NCBI RefSeq assembly: GCF_900114455.1
Contig: NZ_FOTC01000002.1
Location: forward strand, 343,012-407,011
Length of the DNA: 64,000 bases
Source: Halogranum rubrum
GTDB lineage: Archaea > Halobacteriota > Halobacteria > Halobacteriales > Haloferacaceae
Direction: 5' to 3'
This document shows, piece by piece, positions 3,460 through 50,581 of the stretch; the stretch's first letter is position 1, and the number at the start of each line of letters is the position of its first letter. Both the position numbers and the translations under genes were made by a program. The notes under the pieces are model-generated. The model did not search any database and was not told where the DNA came from. It saw only the letters and a program-made list of their open reading frames with translations.

Positions 3460-5784
3460 ATGGAACTCGTCCCGCTCGTTCTGTGGCTCTTGCTCTACGC
3501 GCTCCTTGCGGGTGCAGGGCTTTCGCTCGCCCTGCGACTGTTCGCGCCGTTGCCGACTCGCGGTGTCGGCTTCGCGCTCCCCGTCGCCCTCGTCGTGCTG
3601 ACCACGGTCGGCTACTGGGTCGGCCACCTCGCGTTCGGCGTCGTCGCCCCCGTCGTCGGCTTGCTCGTCTTACTGGCGCTCTCTGCACTCGCCGGACTCG
3701 ACCGAGACGCACTCCGCGAGCGTCGCGTCGAACCTGCCGCCGACCTCGACTTCGACCGCTCGGCCGCCGTCGACACCGTCGCCGTCTTCCTCGTCGCCTT
3801 CGCCTTCCTCGTTCTCGTCCGTGCCGCCGACCCGGCGGTCCACGCGGGCGGCGGCGAGAAGTTCCTCGACTTCGGTCTCCTCAAGTCACTCATGATGTCG
3901 CCGACGCTCCCGCCAGAAGACATGTGGTTCGCGGGCGAACCCGTCCGCTACTACTACGGCGGCCACCTGACGACGGCGCTCGTCGCGAAACTCGCCGGTG
4001 TCGCCCCCGCGTACGCGTACAACCTCTCACTCGCCGGGTTCTACGCGATGCTCGTCACCGCGGCGTTCGACCTCGCCGGTTCGGTTGCCGCCGCGCGCGG
4101 CGGGTCTCGCCGTACTGCTGGCCTCTTCGCCGCCTTCTTCGTCGGCTTCGCGAGTAACCTCGTCACGGCGAGTCGACTCGTCCTCCTCGCCGTCCCGGAC
4201 CCGCTTCGGACACAGATTGCAACGGCGCTCGCCGAGCAGTCACGCTACTCGGTCGCCGACTTCCTCGCCGGACCGTCGTCGTTCAGCTACTGGTCTGCGA
4301 GTCGCGTCATCCCGGGGACGATAAACGAGTTCCCGCTCTTCGCGTGGCTCAACGGCGACCTGCACGCCCACATGATGGGGACGGTCTTTCTCCTCCTCGG
4401 GGCGGCGCTCTGCTACAGCTACTACCGAACCCCGGCGACGAACCGACGGCGACGCTGGGCGCTCGTCTTCCTCGTCCTGCCGCTGCTCGGGAGCGTCCAA
4501 ACCTACACCGACACGTGGAGTTTCCCGTCGATATTCGGTCTGCTCTTTCTCACGCTCACGTTCGCCCCCGCCGACCCGCTCACGGTCTTCTCGGAGTCGA
4601 TTCCGAGACGACTCCGTGGCTCCATCGGTGACTCGTGGCTCGGAGGGGAACTCGTCCGGACCCTCAGCGCACTCGTCATCACCGCCAGCGCGGGCGGGTT
4701 GGCCGTGCTTCTCAGTCTCCCGTTCCTGCTCGCCGCCGGGGCCAGTCGCGAGGTGGCCTTCTTGACGCTAGAGATGCGGAGTCCGCTCGGACCACTGCTG
4801 CTCGTCCACGGCGCGTTCCTCGTCGCGTTCGCGGCGTACCTCTACGACCGCCTCGGTGTCGACAGCAGTCGACTCCTGCTCGTGGTCGCGCTGGCCGCCG
4901 TCGGCGTCGTCGCCGCCCTTCAGCAGTTCGCCGTCCTCTTCGCCGTCGCGCCGCTGCTCGTCTTCGGGTGGCTCGCCCTCCGGATGGACCGCGACGTCGG
5001 CTACGAGACGGTCCTCGTCGTCGCCGGGGCGGGTCTCGTCCTCCTCGTGGAGCTCCTCTACGTCAAGGAGCAGGCGGGACCGGGGCGGATGAACACGGTG
5101 TTCAAGACCTACATGCAGGTGTGGGTGCTCTGGGGAACGGCGATGGGTGCGGTCCTCTCGGGGCTCCTCCAATCACCCTCGCTCGCGGCACCGAAACTCC
5201 GCCTTCGAGCCGCTCGCTCGGTTCTCGGTGTCGTTCTCGTCGTCGCTCTCGTCGCCTCGACGTCGGTGTACGGCGCGTTCGCGGTCTCACAACATTTCGA
5301 CCAGCACTCGGGGTCGACGCTGGATGCGACGGCGTTCGCGACGGAGCAACATCCCGAGGAGGCGAAAGCCATCGACTGGCTCGACGAGCGAGCGACGGCG
5401 GAGACGACGCTCCTCTCTGCGCCCGCGACGAGTATCTATCCGGACGCACAGAACGGCTCGTACCCCTACCCACCCGGGATGTACAGCTGGGACTCGAGTC
5501 CTGCAGCGAGTCTAACCGGTGTCCCGACTGTCGCCGGCTGGCACCACGAAGTCGGCTATCGCGGCTACGACGCCTACCACCAGCGTGTTCGCGTCGTCGA
5601 CGCGGCGTACACCGGGTCGACCGAGGAGTTCCAGTCGGTCGTCTCGGAGTACGACGTCGAGTACGTCTGGGTCGGTCCGGCCGAGCGCGCCCGCTACGGC
5701 GACACACTCTCGATTTCGGAGAGGCCCGGCGTCGAGGTGGCCTACGAGACGGAGGCGGTGACTGTCTACCGCGTCGACGGCTAG
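3460..5784 (+). CDS. DUF2298 polytopic membrane protein (Chlor_Arch_YYY family)
   Basis: A 774-residue protein with about a dozen transmembrane helices. The diagnostic run of three tyrosines followed by GGH (PVRYYYGGHL, about residue 165-174) defines the YYY family found in Chloroflexi and archaea. The membrane part resembles GT-C glycosyltransferases, including a short acidic-motif loop (FAWLNGDLHAHMMG). The last 170 residues form a soluble, probably extracytoplasmic domain. Divergent from the GT2-GtrA pair, it fits a role as the membrane glycosyltransferase that uses the lipid-linked sugar. Family biochemistry is not established; the GT-C reading is inference. An A/T-rich AAAAAGCGTATA about 30 bases upstream is the likely promoter. 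Confidence 0.88.
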   Translation: MELVPLVLWLLLYALLAGAGLSLALRLFAPLPTRGVGFALPVALVVLTTVGYWVGHLAFGVVAPVVGLLVLLALSALAGLDRDALRERRVEPAADLDFDRSAAVDTVAVFLVAFAFLVLVRAADPAVHAGGGEKFLDFGLLKSLMMSPTLPPEDMWFAGEPVRYYYGGHLTTALVAKLAGVAPAYAYNLSLAGFYAMLVTAAFDLAGSVAAARGGSRRTAGLFAAFFVGFASNLVTASRLVLLAVPDPLRTQIATALAEQSRYSVADFLAGPSSFSYWSASRVIPGTINEFPLFAWLNGDLHAHMMGTVFLLLGAALCYSYYRTPATNRRRRWALVFLVLPLLGSVQTYTDTWSFPSIFGLLFLTLTFAPADPLTVFSESIPRRLRGSIGDSWLGGELVRTLSALVITASAGGLAVLLSLPFLLAAGASREVAFLTLEMRSPLGPLLLVHGAFLVAFAAYLYDRLGVDSSRLLLVVALAAVGVVAALQQFAVLFAVAPLLVFGWLALRMDRDVGYETVLVVAGAGLVLLVELLYVKEQAGPGRMNTVFKTYMQVWVLWGTAMGAVLSGLLQSPSLAAPKLRLRAARSVLGVVLVVALVASTSVYGAFAVSQHFDQHSGSTLDATAFATEQHPEEAKAIDWLDERATAETTLLSAPATSIYPDAQNGSYPYPPGMYSWDSSPAASLTGVPTVAGWHHEVGYRGYDAYHQRVRVVDAAYTGSTEEFQSVVSEYDVEYVWVGPAERARYGDTLSISERPGVEVAYETEAVTVYRVDG

Positions 5785-19950: not shown

Positions 19951-21042
19951 TCACTCTCGCAAAAACGCGTCGTCGCCGTGTTTCTCGCGGAGTCGTCGAA
20001 GTTCGTCACGCTGTTCTCGCAGGTGCGGTGGCGTCTCGGCGTAGGTGTACTCGAACATGTCGTCGGGGTCGGCCTCTAACTCCTCGATGGTGGCGAGAGC
20101 GTCGGCGACGTGGTCGTGGACCTCTGTCTCTATCGCGTCGGCACGTTCGTCGTCGAGACGCCCCGTCTCTCGCAGGAACGTCTCTAACCGTCGAATCGGG
20201 TCCCACCGTCGCCACTCGTCTATCTCTTCGTCTTCTCGGTAGGCCGTCGGGTCGTCGGCGGTGGTGTGCGCGCCGTAGCGATACTGGACCGCCTCGACGA
20301 GCGTCGGGCGGGGCGTGTCGTCCTCGTCGTTTCGCGCTCTCTCGACTGCGTCTTTCGTGACTTGGTACGTCGCCAGCGGGTCCATCCCGTCGACGCGGAC
20401 ACCCTCGAAGCCGTAGGCCTCGGCCTTCTGTGCGAACGTCGCACTCGCGGTCTGTTGCTCCGTGGGAACGGAGATGGCCCACTGGTTGTTGTGACAGAGA
20501 AAGACGCTCGGGGTGTCGAAGACGCCCGCGAAGTTCAGCCCCTCGTGGAAGTCTCCCTCGCTGGTCGCGCCGTCGCCGAAGTGACAGACGAACGCCTTCG
20601 ACTCGCCTTTCAGTTTCGACGCCCACGCCATCCCCACTGCGTGCGGAATGTGGTCGGCGATGGTGATGTTCAGCGGGAAGACGTGGGCGTCGGCGATGTC
20701 GGCATTTCCTTCCTCGTAGCCGACCCAGTACGGCAGATACTCCTCCAGTGCGTCGCGGACGACGATAGCACCGTGTTCGCGGTACTGGTACAGAATCCAG
20801 TCGTCCTCGGCGAGCGCGTAGGTCGACCCGACCTGCGACCCCTCTTGTCCAGCGAGTGGTGCGTAGGTGCCGATTCTACCCTGTCGCTGGAGGCTGACCG
20901 CCCGCTCGTCGAAGTGTCTCGAACACACCATATCGCGGTACATCCCGACCAGTGCGTCGTCGGACAGCGACGGAACCTCCCGGCCGTCGATACGGTGGCC
21001 GTCGGCGTCGAGTACCCGGACGAGACCGTCGTCCATGTTCAT
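19951..21042 (-). CDS. Thiamine-diphosphate dehydrogenase E1 component, alpha subunit (orphan)
   Basis: A 363-residue E1-alpha subunit of the 2-oxoacid dehydrogenase family. The thiamine diphosphate motif begins GDGATSEGDFHEGLNFAG and ends in HNN, and RDMVCSRHFDERA and YRYGAHTTADDP are the conserved N- and C-terminal blocks. Pyruvate, branched-chain 2-oxoacids or acetoin are possible substrates. Beta subunit, E2 and E3 genes are not adjacent, unlike the usual operon. It is convergent with the flavoprotein gene (5 bases apart) and follows the alcohol dehydrogenase gene on the same strand. Start is ATG 21042, with a second ATG two codons on. Confidence 0.9.
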   Translation of the reverse strand: MNMDDGLVRVLDADGHRIDGREVPSLSDDALVGMYRDMVCSRHFDERAVSLQRQGRIGTYAPLAGQEGSQVGSTYALAEDDWILYQYREHGAIVVRDALEEYLPYWVGYEEGNADIADAHVFPLNITIADHIPHAVGMAWASKLKGESKAFVCHFGDGATSEGDFHEGLNFAGVFDTPSVFLCHNNQWAISVPTEQQTASATFAQKAEAYGFEGVRVDGMDPLATYQVTKDAVERARNDEDDTPRPTLVEAVQYRYGAHTTADDPTAYREDEEIDEWRRWDPIRRLETFLRETGRLDDERADAIETEVHDHVADALATIEELEADPDDMFEYTYAETPPHLREQRDELRRLREKHGDDAFLRE

Positions 21043-21130: not shown

Positions 21131-22171
21131 TTACGGCGTGATGACCGCACGCCCCTCGATTTCGCCGTGTTCCAGTCGCTCGGCGACGGTGTTGATGTCG
21201 TCGAGGTCGTAGCGACTCGTTCGAAGTTCCACGTCGCCGCGGTCGACGAGTGCGACGAGTTCCTGCAGTTCCGGATACTTGCCGACGAGCGTTCCCTTGT
21301 ACGAGAACTCGCCGTCGACGAGCGACTGGGAGGGTTCGTGGACGTGGCCGCCGTAGCCGACGATGTGGTGGTCGCCGCCGGCGGCGACGATGTCGGGCGC
21401 GAGCGCCGTCGTCTCGTCGCGGCCGACGAAGTCGATTACCTGTTGCGCGCCGACGCCGTCGGTGATGGAGTCGATTTCGGCGGCGACGTCCTCCGAAGAC
21501 GGGTCGACGGTGTGGTGTGCGCCGAGTTCCTCGGCCAAGTCGCGAGCCTCCTCTTTGAGGTCGAGGGCGGTGATGGTCGTCGCGCTCATCGCGTCCAGAC
21601 ACTGCAGACCGATATGGCCGAGGCCGCCGACGCCGACGACGACGGCGTGGTCACCCGGGTTGAGTTCTCTCGTCGCCTTCTTCACCGCGTGATAGGCCGT
21701 GATACCCGCGTCGGCGTGCGGGGCGATGTCTGTCGTATCGACGCCGTCGGGGAGTTTGATGACCGAGCGCTCGGCAGTGAGCAGTTCTTCTGCGAACCCG
21801 CCGTCGGTCGTGAGTCCGGGAAAGTCGAGGTTCTCACAGTACATGTCCTCACCGAGTCGACAGGGCCGGCACTTCCCGCAGGTCATCACCGGATGGCAGA
21901 TGACCTTGTCTCCCTCTTCGACGAGCGTCACTTCCTCGCCCGTGTCGACGACGGTACCGGCGTTCTCGTGGCCGAGTGTCATCGGCAGTGTCTGTTCGAC
22001 GTAGTCGGTCCACATTCCCTCGACGATGTGGTTGTCTGTCTGGCACCATCCTGCGCCCTCGACTTCGACGACGACGCCATCCGACCGCGTGATGTCGGGT
22101 CGGTCGACGTCGTCGATGGACAGTGCCTGTGTCATGTCGTCGGTGTACTCGTGGAGTCTCGCAGCGTCCAT
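21131..22171 (-). CDS. Zinc-dependent medium-chain alcohol dehydrogenase
   Basis: A 346-residue NAD(P)-dependent dehydrogenase. Catalytic zinc ligands are Cys43 (GWCQTDNH) and His68-Glu69 (GHENAG). The structural zinc is bound by four cysteines at 98, 101, 104 and 112. The cofactor motif is VGVGGLGHIG. It is divergent from the amidohydrolase-DUF59 pair. In bacterial propane and acetone monooxygenase clusters a related alcohol dehydrogenase lies with those same two partners, so oxidation of a secondary or short-chain alcohol is the leading idea. The substrate is not proven by sequence. Confidence 0.88.
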   Translation of the reverse strand: MDAARLHEYTDDMTQALSIDDVDRPDITRSDGVVVEVEGAGWCQTDNHIVEGMWTDYVEQTLPMTLGHENAGTVVDTGEEVTLVEEGDKVICHPVMTCGKCRPCRLGEDMYCENLDFPGLTTDGGFAEELLTAERSVIKLPDGVDTTDIAPHADAGITAYHAVKKATRELNPGDHAVVVGVGGLGHIGLQCLDAMSATTITALDLKEEARDLAEELGAHHTVDPSSEDVAAEIDSITDGVGAQQVIDFVGRDETTALAPDIVAAGGDHHIVGYGGHVHEPSQSLVDGEFSYKGTLVGKYPELQELVALVDRGDVELRTSRYDLDDINTVAERLEHGEIEGRAVITP

Positions 22172-22196
22172 GGCACGAGACTAGTCAACAATTCTC

Positions 22197-22256
22197 AACT
22201 AAGTAGTTAGGATACAGGAAAGATAATGATGGTTTACGAAAGATAATTATGTATAT
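22197..22256 (+). promoter_or_regulatory. Divergent control region with two 10-base direct repeats
   Basis: In the A/T-rich gap between the alcohol dehydrogenase and amidohydrolase genes, GAAAGATAAT occurs at 22218-22227 and again at 22238-22247, exactly 20 bases apart (two helical turns). AACTA-AG-TAGTT (22197-22208) is a small palindrome. TATGTATA at about 22249-22256 is the likely TATA box for the leaderless amidohydrolase mRNA (ATG 22276). The arrangement suggests an activator binding one face upstream of TATA. Confidence 0.5.
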
Positions 22257-22275
22257 TCTCTAGTACGATAGTGCT

Positions 22276-23337
22276 ATGTACCGCTACAAGGGAGAGGACG
22301 TGTTCGTCGTCGACGGCCACGTCCACCACTGGGACGCCAGCGAGGAGAACATCAAGCACGAGGGTGGCGAGCAGTTCATCCAGTGTTTCTACGACTACCA
22401 CACCGGGTTCACGCCAGAGGACCGGCAGTGGACCATCGACGAGTACCGCACGTACGACACCGACCGGATGGTGTCGGACCTCTTCGGGAGCGGGTACGTC
22501 GACGTCGCCGTCACCCAACCCACACACCTCGACGAGTTCTACGAGGAGGGGTTCAACCGGGTCGACACGAACGCCGAACTCGCCGAGCAGTATCCCGACC
22601 GGTTCGTTGCCAACGGTCGGTTCGACCCGCGTGAGGGCGAGGAAGGGTTGGAGGAACTCGAACGACAGAAAGCGGAGTACGACATCACCGGCGTGAAAGT
22701 CTACACCGCCGAGTGGCGCGGCGACTCGAAGGGGTGGCGACTCGACAGTGAGGAGGCCTTCGAGTATCTCCAGAAGTGCGTCGATTTGGGAATCGAAAAC
22801 ATCCACGCTCACAAGGGGCCGACGATTCGGCCCCTGAACAAGGATGCCTTCGACGTCGCCGACATCGACGACGCCGCGACGTCGTTCCCCGACCTGAACT
22901 TCGTCGTCGAACACATCGGCCTGCCACGTCTCGACGACTTCTGTTGGATTGCGGCCCAAGAGCCGAACGTCTACGGTGGTCTCGCCGTCGCGGCACCGTT
23001 CGCACAGGTCCGACCGAAGAAGTTCGGCGAGATACTGGGCGAACTGCTCTTCTGGTTGGGCGAGGACCGCATCCTCTTCGGGAGTGACTACGCCATCTGG
23101 GAACCGGAGTGGCTCATCGAAGCGGTGATGACCGCCGAACTCACCCCCGAACAGCGCGCGGAGTACGGCGTCGAGTTCGACTTAGAGACGAAGAAGAAGG
23201 TGATGGGCGAGAACGCCGCCGAGTTGTACGACATCGACATTCCGAAGCGTGCCGACACGCTGCAGGACGACGCCATCAGCGAGGAGTTCGGCTTGACCGG
23301 CGGCGACATCGGCCCCGAGGAAGGTGCTGCAGACTGA
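22276..23337 (+). CDS. Amidohydrolase-family protein of the di-iron monooxygenase accessory type
   Basis: A 353-residue TIM-barrel metal-dependent hydrolase (amidohydrolase_2 type). Metal ligands are expected in DGHVHHWD (residues 14-21) and in IHAHKGP and VEHIGLPRLDDF, with the late catalytic Asp in FGSDYAIWEPEW. The pattern, including FYDYHTGFTPED and KVYTAEWRGDSKGW, matches my recollection of the amidohydrolase encoded beside propane/acetone monooxygenases (prm, mim) in actinobacteria, where it helps make active enzyme. Its stop overlaps the next ATG (TGATG). No hydroxylase, reductase or chaperonin gene is present here. Confidence 0.85.
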   Translation: MYRYKGEDVFVVDGHVHHWDASEENIKHEGGEQFIQCFYDYHTGFTPEDRQWTIDEYRTYDTDRMVSDLFGSGYVDVAVTQPTHLDEFYEEGFNRVDTNAELAEQYPDRFVANGRFDPREGEEGLEELERQKAEYDITGVKVYTAEWRGDSKGWRLDSEEAFEYLQKCVDLGIENIHAHKGPTIRPLNKDAFDVADIDDAATSFPDLNFVVEHIGLPRLDDFCWIAAQEPNVYGGLAVAAPFAQVRPKKFGEILGELLFWLGEDRILFGSDYAIWEPEWLIEAVMTAELTPEQRAEYGVEFDLETKKKVMGENAAELYDIDIPKRADTLQDDAISEEFGLTGGDIGPEEGAAD

Positions 23338-24146
23338 TGGCGGGTCCCATCACTCCGACCGCCGTGCGCGAGCGACTCGACCGCGTCACCGACCCGGAAC
23401 TCGACCGCTCTATCGTCGCGTTGGGGTACATCGAGTCGGTCGACGTGGACCTTCCAGAAGTCCGCGTCGAGTTCTGTCTGCCCACGGCGTGGTGTTCACC
23501 GGCCTTCGCGTGGATGATGGCGACCGACGCCCGCCGGGAGGTGGAGACGCTCTCGGGCGTCGAACGCGCCGTCGTCGTCCTCACGGACCACATGCACGAA
23601 GAGGAGATAACCCGCGGCGTCAACGAGGGGATGTCGTTCGAGGCGACGTTCCCCGACGCCGACGGGGACGTGGAGAGCGTTCGGCGTGACCTCGACGAGA
23701 AGGCGCTCCTGTCGCGGCAGTATCACGCGGTGTCGGCGCTGCTCGATGCGGGACTGACTCCCGAACAGGTCGTCGGACTGACGCCAGAGCGATTGAACCT
23801 CGACCACGTCGACGACGCGGCCGCTGGTTCGGCAGTCCGCGCAGACGGTGCGCCCGAGACACCCGAGGCGACGACCGTGTTCGTCCGCGAGGGCACGGTC
23901 GGTATCACCGTCCCGCTCGAATCCACACACTCCTATCTCGCCAAGGCCCGTCCGCTCGGTGTCGTCACGGACGGCTCAGACCCACTCTTTCGGACGCCAG
24001 ACGGCGAGACGCTCACGGCAGAGAACTTCGAACGCGTCTACCACCGCACACGGCTGACGGCGACGAACATGGACGGACAGGGCGGTATCTGTGCGTACCT
24101 CCACGAAGCGCGACAGGGTCGGCGACATCTGGCCGAAGTCGAGTAG
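23337..24146 (+). CDS. DUF59/MIP18-domain metal-sulfur cluster assembly-like protein with C-terminal extension
   Basis: A 269-residue protein. Residues 1-100 form the DUF59 fold (VTDPELDRSIVALGYIESV), with the conserved cysteine in a LPTAWCSP motif and an IEEE/DHMHEEEI region. The remaining 170 residues are an extension not seen in SufT or PaaD, with a repeated helical part (LTPEQVVGLTPERL) and a small beta-rich end. Stand-alone DUF59 proteins mature iron-sulfur or di-iron enzymes. Translation is coupled to the amidohydrolase (overlap of one base). In monooxygenase operons this protein pairs with the same amidohydrolase. Confidence 0.82.
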   Translation: MAGPITPTAVRERLDRVTDPELDRSIVALGYIESVDVDLPEVRVEFCLPTAWCSPAFAWMMATDARREVETLSGVERAVVVLTDHMHEEEITRGVNEGMSFEATFPDADGDVESVRRDLDEKALLSRQYHAVSALLDAGLTPEQVVGLTPERLNLDHVDDAAAGSAVRADGAPETPEATTVFVREGTVGITVPLESTHSYLAKARPLGVVTDGSDPLFRTPDGETLTAENFERVYHRTRLTATNMDGQGGICAYLHEARQGRRHLAEVE

Positions 24147-24200: not shown

Positions 24201-24893
24201 TCACAACATCTTCCGAAACTCGCCAAGCGGCGGAAACGTCAGTGTCTCGTGGCTGTCGGTGTCGTAGACGACGGGGCAGAACACGTCGACGTCGGTGACG
24301 AAGGGAGACTGAAAGTCGCTCGTCTGCATCGTGTTGACCGGGACGCCGGCGGCGAGACAGTTGAACGCAGGGAGCATCAGCACGTCGGCGTCGCGGTAGG
24401 TACCTTCGCCGAAGAGGAAACAGGGACGCCGTTGGCCCTCGATTTCGATGGCCGGATGGTCGTGGCCGACGACGTACCGTTCGGCGTCCTCGTCGACCGT
24501 TTCGTGGCCGTGACAGACCACGGTCCCGTCGGTGAGTCGGTAGCTCTCGTGGATAGGGCCGTCCCACACCTCCGAGAGCATCGTGTCGTGGTTGCCGGCA
24601 ACGAGGACGAACGTCGCACCCGCGTCGTGACAGCAGTCGGCGAGTTCGTCCAGACTCGCGGTCACGGCGGGCGAGATCTGTGAGAAACTGTGGAGGACGT
24701 CGCCCGCGACGACCACGACGGCGGGTTTGTAGTGGGCGAGTAACCCGTCGAGTCGCTCACGGAGGTCCGCACGTTCGCCGAGCGGAAACTCCACGCCGGA
24801 GACTTCGTCGCGACCGACGTGGAGGTCGGCGACGACGAGCGTCTCTGGGCCGGCGAGAAACACGGCGCGGTCGCGAAACGACAGGTCGTGCAC
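24201..24893 (-). CDS. Calcineurin-like metallophosphoesterase
   Basis: A 230-residue enzyme with all family motifs in order: DLH (residues 23-25), GDVLH, GNHD, CHGHE and GHDHP. These bind two metal ions and cleave phosphoesters. It resembles the small archaeal metallophosphoesterases of the YfcE/ligase-associated type. Translation starts at GTG 24893. This follows directly on an 11-base inverted repeat, whose far arm supplies a TTTACC box about 27 bases away, so the mRNA is probably leaderless. It is divergent from a COG1497 regulator gene. Confidence 0.88.
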   Translation of the reverse strand: MHDLSFRDRAVFLAGPETLVVADLHVGRDEVSGVEFPLGERADLRERLDGLLAHYKPAVVVVAGDVLHSFSQISPAVTASLDELADCCHDAGATFVLVAGNHDTMLSEVWDGPIHESYRLTDGTVVCHGHETVDEDAERYVVGHDHPAIEIEGQRRPCFLFGEGTYRDADVLMLPAFNCLAAGVPVNTMQTSDFQSPFVTDVDVFCPVVYDTDSHETLTFPPLGEFRKML

Positions 24894-49781: not shown

Positions 49782-50420
49782 TCAGCCGAAGTTCTCTATC
49801 TTCGCGCCGTCGACGTCGCCGTCGGCGTCCTCGATAGCTTCCACCGCTTCGTCGACGAACGCGGCGAAGCCGTAGACGAACACTTGCTCACCCTCCGCGC
49901 CCGTTACCGCGTCGGCGACGGCGTCGGTGAGGTCGCCGTCGGTGACGACGACTGTGGCACCGTCGTCTTCGAGCGCGCTCAGGCGCTCTTCGTGGGCCGG
50001 GTCGTCGTCCTTGTAGACGACGGCGGCCTCGTTGCCGTCGTCGAGGGCGCGTTCGGCGATGGCGACGGCGGGGCCGACACCCGGTCCGCCCGCGAGGACG
50101 ACGACGCGCGACTCGCCCTCGTAGTGGTCGGAGCCGTAGGGGCCAGACATCTCCACCTCGTCGCCTTCGCCCAGGTCGGCGAGGAATTTGCTGAAGGGGC
50201 CGGCCTCTTCGTCGTCGATGCCCACGGTGACCTCGAAGGTGTCTTCGACGCGTGGCGACGAGAGCGTGTAGAAGCGGGCGTAGCCCTCGCCGTCGAGCGT
50301 CGCCGAAAGTTTGACGAACTGGCCGGGTTCGGCCGCGAATCCGTCGGGTGCGTCGAACTCGATGGCAATCGTGTCCGAACCGACACTCTCGGCGGCGGTG
50401 ACAGTGACAGTAGCGTCCAT
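49782..50420 (-). CDS. Ferredoxin-NAD(P)H reductase-like flavoprotein
   Basis: A 212-residue two-domain reductase. Residues 1-95 form the FAD-binding barrel with the RFYTLSSP motif (R-x-Y-S/T-x-S), and residues 96-212 form a Rossmann NAD(P) domain with GGPGVGPAVAIAERAL and a C-terminal FVYGFAAFVDE. This is the ferredoxin/flavin reductase family. It is divergent from the korAB genes, so it might recycle the ferredoxin reduced by KorAB, which is inference from position. Confidence 0.87.
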   Translation of the reverse strand: MDATVTVTAAESVGSDTIAIEFDAPDGFAAEPGQFVKLSATLDGEGYARFYTLSSPRVEDTFEVTVGIDDEEAGPFSKFLADLGEGDEVEMSGPYGSDHYEGESRVVVLAGGPGVGPAVAIAERALDDGNEAAVVYKDDDPAHEERLSALEDDGATVVVTDGDLTDAVADAVTGAEGEQVFVYGFAAFVDEAVEAIEDADGDVDGAKIENFG

Positions 50421-50581
50421 GGATGGGGCTTCTCGGCGGTGGACAAAGGGCCTTCTCATCGAGATACGACGTATCACGCCACGGCGTCGCACGCTTCCCG
50501 CAAAATCGACCGTTCGTCCACCTGCGAGTAACCGCCCTTTTCAGAAGGCTTTTCATCCGACAACGGGAACCTCCGACACAC

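Follow-up and report, generated by a model that had tools for sequence, protein, structure and literature searches.

In a 64,000-nucleotide stretch of the Halogranum rubrum genome (contig NZ_FOTC01000002.1, positions 343,012 to 407,011; hereafter the window), a gene for an amidohydrolase (AMH) is directly followed by a gene for a DUF59 protein and lies beside a divergent alcohol dehydrogenase (ADH) gene. Genome comparison gives good support to the view that AMH and DUF59 are conserved as a pair, independently of any soluble di-iron monooxygenase (SDIMO). We lean towards the reading that the two proteins form one SDIMO-independent unit, in which an amidohydrolase-fold enzyme with an iron–sulphur (Fe–S)-carrier-type partner would act with the ADH on small carbonyls. 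The initial annotation of this DNA had noticed monooxygenase accessory genes without a monooxygenase. The observation and the resemblance are right, but the interpretation of the genes as accessories of a monooxygenase is not. The window genes are best filed, on present comparisons, as a haloarchaeal member of an AMH–DUF59 family that also includes the genes of propane clusters.

The ADH gene (21131..22171, minus strand) encodes a zinc-dependent medium-chain enzyme of 346 residues with Pfam ADH_N and ADH_zinc_N domains. Among solved structures it best matches the ADH of Aeropyrum pernix (1h2b; 1.8e-99), followed by bacterial ADHs including the secondary-alcohol ADH-A of Rhodococcus ruber (~1e-50), both of which are likewise of the zinc medium-chain type. 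The AMH gene (22276..23337, plus strand) encodes a TIM-barrel protein of 353 residues belonging to Amidohydro_2 (PF04909, 156.8 bits against a cut-off of 26.4). Its stop codon shares bases with the start codon of the DUF59 gene (TGATG), which encodes a DUF59/FeS_assembly_P protein of 269 residues (23337..24146, plus strand; PF01883, 46.3 bits against a cut-off of 23.5). All three reading frames are open and full length, and gene calls and Pfam scores agree that the genes lie together here, as annotated initially. The host is a haloarchaeon with a genome of 4.6 Mb in 17 contigs and a completeness estimate of 99.99%.

A search with AMH gathered 76 haloarchaeal loci, 74 of which could be scored for gene order. 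The DUF59 gene comes directly after the AMH gene in all 74; the two genes overlap in TGATG in 50 loci and their spacing is 20 nt or less in 66. An ADH homologue is found within 4 kb of AMH in 69 loci (67 divergent, 2 downstream). Because this arrangement is conserved across the 74 loci, chance grouping is excluded. The genes beyond ADH, AMH and DUF59 vary among haloarchaeal lineages, so the unit consists of these three genes. Five haloarchaeal loci have no adjacent ADH, and two of them encode a double glyoxalase (VOC) protein about 1.2 kb upstream of AMH (L039, 8022-8810; L040, 8007-8795).

A search of the whole 4.6-Mb genome with PF02332, a profile for both SDIMO hydroxylase subunits, gave no match. 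This negative result is informative because the same search succeeds on known monooxygenase plasmids, detecting the SDIMO in those of Caballeronia, Paracoccus, R. aetherivorans and Thermomicrobium roseum. The window was also searched by tblastn with the Caballeronia hydroxylase alpha and beta subunits, coupling protein, reductase and GroEL. The queries for hydroxylase, coupling protein and GroEL returned nothing, in agreement with the initial statement that no such gene is near the set, and the reductase query gave a single weak match of 26% identity, 26 kb away. This match (50013-50444) is probably an ordinary ferredoxin/flavin reductase. Likewise, no hydroxylase subunit, coupling protein, GroEL or reductase was found at the 76 haloarchaeal AMH loci. 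Searches of 145 haloarchaeal genomes revealed AMH in 41, an SDIMO in two and both in none. The idea that the hydroxylase is encoded elsewhere is therefore not supported, since neither this genome nor any of the other 40 AMH-positive haloarchaeal genomes has a PF02332 protein. The two SDIMO carriers (genomes G064 and G095; loci L131 and L132) lack AMH, and their hydroxylase shares about 25% identity with that of the propane type; at two of 145 genomes, archaeal SDIMOs seem rare.

Proteins of bacterial propane/acetone monooxygenase clusters are 49-56% identical to AMH and 26-34% identical to the DUF59 protein, and the window ADH is 44-48% identical to the ADHs of these clusters and of T. roseum. 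The plasmid relatives of AMH (51-57% identity) sit in clusters with hydroxylase, reductase, coupling protein, AMH, DUF59, GroEL and ADH genes. Both the likeness of AMH to the accessory protein of such clusters and the presence there of DUF59 and ADH genes homologous to those of the window are thus borne out. The prm/mim clusters (prmABCD/mimABCD, group 5 SDIMOs of actinobacteria and proteobacteria) have AMH followed by a long DUF59 protein, plus a homologous ADH, as in the window. In contrast, the haloarchaeal loci lack hydroxylase, reductase, coupling protein and GroEL, and their genomes lack an SDIMO.

Pairs without an adjacent monooxygenase (orphan pairs) also occur in bacteria. The gene order is IclR–DUF59–AMH–ADH in T. 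roseum (L082), AMH–DUF59–gloA–hydroxyacid dehydrogenase in Rhizobium N324 and AMH–DUF59–DJ-1/PfpI in Peribacillus. The only SDIMO of T. roseum is located on the plasmid about 370 kb from the AMH–DUF59 pair; it is about 25% identical, and its cluster does not contain the pair. AMH is present in 25 of 397 Hyphomicrobiales genomes, and 17 of these 25 carry an SDIMO in the same cluster while the remaining 8 have no SDIMO at all. All eight retain AMH–DUF59, although some are metagenome-assembled genomes and may be incomplete. DUF59 directly adjoins AMH in all 25 genomes, as judged from shared cluster coordinates in G219 and G319 and read directly in the others. Two AMH matches contain one stop codon each, TAA in G479 (L140/L144) and TGA in G693 (L159/L179), which may reflect decay or a sequencing error.

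The persistence of AMH–DUF59 pairs in haloarchaea and bacteria without an SDIMO argues against service to an SDIMO as the purpose of the set. Consistently, the Rhodococcus SmoABCD cluster is active when transferred to a new host together with only dehydrogenases and GroEL (PMC11057499), so that AMH–DUF59 is not a general requirement of SDIMOs. Literature on AMH and DUF59 together yielded nothing relevant, and in the papers found the AMH and DUF59 genes of propane/acetone clusters are unexplained neighbours with no assigned role. Because the pair is found in haloarchaea and bacteria without the monooxygenase, AMH–DUF59 is probably an unrecognised enzyme of its own.

Haloarchaeal AMH is monophyletic (support 100/100) and is placed beside, not inside, a bacterial clade that contains nearly all monooxygenase-linked AMHs together with alphaproteobacterial orphans and Peribacillus; this placement (88/88) is not decisive. 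The initial annotation had named placement of the amidohydrolase outside the prm/mim-associated clade as the result that would speak against it. This is roughly, though not decisively, what is seen, in that the haloarchaeal clade is distinct, with the stated support for its position outside the bacterial one. The eight Hyphomicrobiales orphan AMHs form one clade (100/100), T. roseum and one alphaproteobacterial orphan branch deeper, and the deepest branch, a long one, is a monooxygenase-linked sequence from Eremiobacterota. With that sequence left out, the monooxygenase-linked AMHs do not form a single clade, at a borderline p-AU (approximately unbiased test) of 0.043.

The residues D13, H15, H17, K141, H179, K180, H213 and D271 of AMH are conserved by residue counts. 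The metal ligands H15, H17, H179 and D271 and the catalytic H213, with roles assigned by homology, are present and conserved in the clade of the window protein; three AMH members lack H17. The predicted structure of AMH (predicted local distance difference test score, pLDDT, 90.5) is closest to LigW and the gamma-resorcylate/2,6-dihydroxybenzoate decarboxylases, and also resembles LigJ and LigY, at 15-18% identity. AMH is therefore, on the predicted model, an amidohydrolase of the decarboxylase/C–C hydrolase kind. LigW, gamma-resorcylate decarboxylase, ACMSD, LigJ and LigY share the TIM barrel and canonical ligands with AMH. However, the identity of LigW/ACMSD-type enzymes to AMH is low (15-18%), and constant pairing with DUF59 is a feature of AMH.

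The partner consists of a DUF59 domain (residues ~1-86) and a C-terminal region of about 170 residues that ends in a long helix. C53, H85 and C252 occur without exception in the 41 DUF59 partners compared. The initial annotation had described the extension as unusual; it is indeed present, but nearly all archaeal and bacterial homologues have a similar length (~240-310 residues). In the predicted structure (pLDDT 92), the DUF59 domain matches CIAO2B (Z 12.4), 3cq2 (Z 10.6) and also 2cu6. Because the C-terminal helix up to residue ~260 aligns with the end of the DUF59 fold in the model, the helix bearing C252 may pack back on the DUF59 domain. The DUF59 fold, DPE motif and conserved cysteine are common to SufT, CIAO2/MIP18, PaaD and the window protein. 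Unlike these, the window protein has the ~170-residue C-terminal region with a second invariant cysteine, and its gene is linked to an amidohydrolase gene rather than to suf or paa genes. Its scores against the NCBIfam equivalogs for haloarchaeal PaaD (29.1 bits, cut-off 180) and SUF_assoc of the SufT type (25.1 bits, cut-off 143.4) lie below the cut-offs. A tyrosine-recombinase-like fold was considered for the C-terminal region (window 23664-24146, reading GLTPEQV...ITVPLES...YLAKAR...LFRTPDG) and is too weak to claim. The structural likeness (Foldseek 5dcf, E 0.031; VIA Z 6.6-7.5 over ~95-97 residues) may be a coincidence; by sequence, one of 49 gave a Pfam Phage_integrase match (E 0.17), and a profile against PDB sequences gave E 0.8-1.5.

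An Fe–S-carrier-type gene also directly follows the genes of more distant amidohydrolases, which share 28-30% identity with AMH. A single, non-exhaustive plasmid search identified 11 distant paralogues with an adjoining DUF59 or NifU-like gene. A short DUF59 gene stands behind the amidohydrolase gene in Natrinema, Natronorubrum, Haloarcula, Bradyrhizobium, Rhodococcus, Sphingopyxis, Sinorhizobium, Streptomyces and this genome, and upstream of it in Nonomuraea. In Shinella and Ensifer (L193 and L203, both 3989-5292), a NifU-like protein with CxxC takes the place of DUF59, an apparent swap of one Fe–S carrier for another. Amidohydrolases of the short-partner branch have lost H15 and D271 and keep K141, H179, K180 and H213. 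The pair of this branch in the present genome (G000:C6:615400-616047, L188) is 76% and 58% identical to the plasmid pairs of Natronorubrum/Haloarcula. The sampled amidohydrolases linked to UbiD/UbiX had no DUF59 or other Fe–S-carrier-type partner. We tentatively raise the possibility, which we hold to be somewhat doubtful, that amidohydrolases with such a partner (DUF59, in some cases NifU-like) represent an undescribed two-protein enzyme class across archaea and bacteria, for carbonyl catabolism and needing the iron or Fe–S cluster of the partner. The long-DUF59 versions, both monooxygenase-linked and haloarchaeal, would be one branch, and the branch with a short, DPC-type DUF59, having lost H15 and D271, would use a different active site.

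Context and literature support the assignment of AMH–DUF59 to a catabolism centred on small alcohols and carbonyls, because of its neighbours and the abundance of the amidohydrolase in Amycolatopsis. Orphan pairs adjoin genes for ADH (T. roseum L082, haloarchaea), Fe-ADH (L006), short-chain dehydrogenases/reductases (SDRs; L074, L180), glyoxalase I (L086, L181, L144), DJ-1/PfpI (L091) and a lactate/glycolate-type FAD-linked oxidase (L181, L144). Glyoxalase I, the FAD-linked oxidase and SDRs are among the neighbours of the eight Hyphomicrobiales orphans. In an acetone-degrading Amycolatopsis grown on 2-hydroxyisobutyrate, the cluster amidohydrolase accounts for 3.2% of the proteome and the hydroxylase subunits 1.8 and 3.8% (PMC7176365), an abundance more like that of a metabolic enzyme than of an assembly factor. 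We infer the role of the partner, the substrate class and the chemistry as follows. The haloarchaeal ADH probably generates a carbonyl compound by oxidation of a small alcohol, likely a secondary one. AMH–DUF59 would then convert this product or a derivative; candidates are small ketones, alpha-hydroxyketones and 2-oxoaldehydes, for instance acetone, acetol and methylglyoxal. The DUF59 partner may load or maintain the metal site of AMH or an Fe–S cluster, or may be a second subunit. Bacterial propane/acetone clusters would carry the pair because their products feed the same branch.

Several points weigh against this assignment. Orphan pairs differ in their surroundings, so that a single substrate for all of them is not assured; four related Hyphomicrobiales orphan loci, for example, adjoin a ribose-type ABC transporter and RpiA (ribose-5-phosphate isomerase). 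Few orphan pairs have a glyoxalase-type neighbour, and the neighbours at the three gloA loci are related by descent. The Amycolatopsis value was obtained for a monooxygenase cluster, in which a stoichiometric subunit would also fit, and the case for the orphan pairs is drawn from genome comparison.

The strongest rival, which we consider unlikely, is that AMH–DUF59 is a metal-insertion or assembly chaperone pair with several clients. These would be the SDIMO hydroxylase in propane clusters and, in haloarchaea and bacteria with orphan pairs, some different metalloenzyme, perhaps the neighbouring ADH or an oxygenase encoded elsewhere. DUF59 proteins are known Fe–S/metal assembly factors, the pair adjoins the chaperonin in SDIMO clusters, and orphan pairs most often have an ADH or SDR as neighbour. 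However, zinc ADHs need no insertion factor to our knowledge, and the full amidohydrolase ligand set is retained in nearly all AMH members. The PaaA/PaaC epoxidase, considered as another metalloenzyme that the set might serve, was rejected as a client, its association with AMH not being significant (28 of 41 genomes with AMH against 56 of 104; p = 0.14). Moreover, SDIMO activity elsewhere needed the chaperonin only (PMC11057499).

It is less probable still that AMH is simply one of the metal-dependent hydrolases or decarboxylases in the LigW/ACMSD superfamily, with DUF59 as a merely structural or regulatory subunit devoid of Fe–S or metal function. The best folds, LigW, 2,6-dihydroxybenzoate decarboxylase, LigJ and LigY, and the conservation of H15, H17, H179, D271 and the catalytic H213 in the clade of the window protein would fit such an enzyme. 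The invariance of C53, H85 and C252 in all 41 partners, the NifU-like Fe–S protein in the DUF59 place in two distant branch members, the three members without H17 and the loss of H15 and D271 in the short-partner branch do not. That the genes are accessories of a propane/acetone-type SDIMO whose hydroxylase lies elsewhere or was recently lost is highly improbable: the homology and gene order common to prm/mim-type clusters speak for it, but none of the 41 AMH-positive haloarchaeal genomes encodes a PF02332 protein, none of the 76 loci contains an SDIMO component, and the haloarchaeal AMH clade is old and conserved.

Haloarchaea and orphan bacteria separate the AMH–DUF59 pair from the monooxygenase, so that its function can be tested without a hydroxylase confusing the result. 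Should the pair be an enzyme, it would represent an overlooked step in the catabolism of short-chain alcohols, ketones and alkanes, and an amidohydrolase with a dedicated Fe–S-type partner would bring new chemistry to this fold.

Within the intergenic, presumably promoter-bearing region between the divergent ADH and AMH genes (22172..22275), GAAAGATAAT occurs twice with a spacing of about 17 bp. This repeat had no counterpart in relatives when 12 upstream regions were compared by eye, and a conserved ADH–AMH promoter motif was dropped as a candidate because the GAAAGATAAT repeat is not common to the relatives inspected. The three genes are flanked by a gene of the pyruvate dehydrogenase (PDH) E1-alpha type (19951-21042) and by a calcineurin-type phosphoesterase gene (24201-24893).

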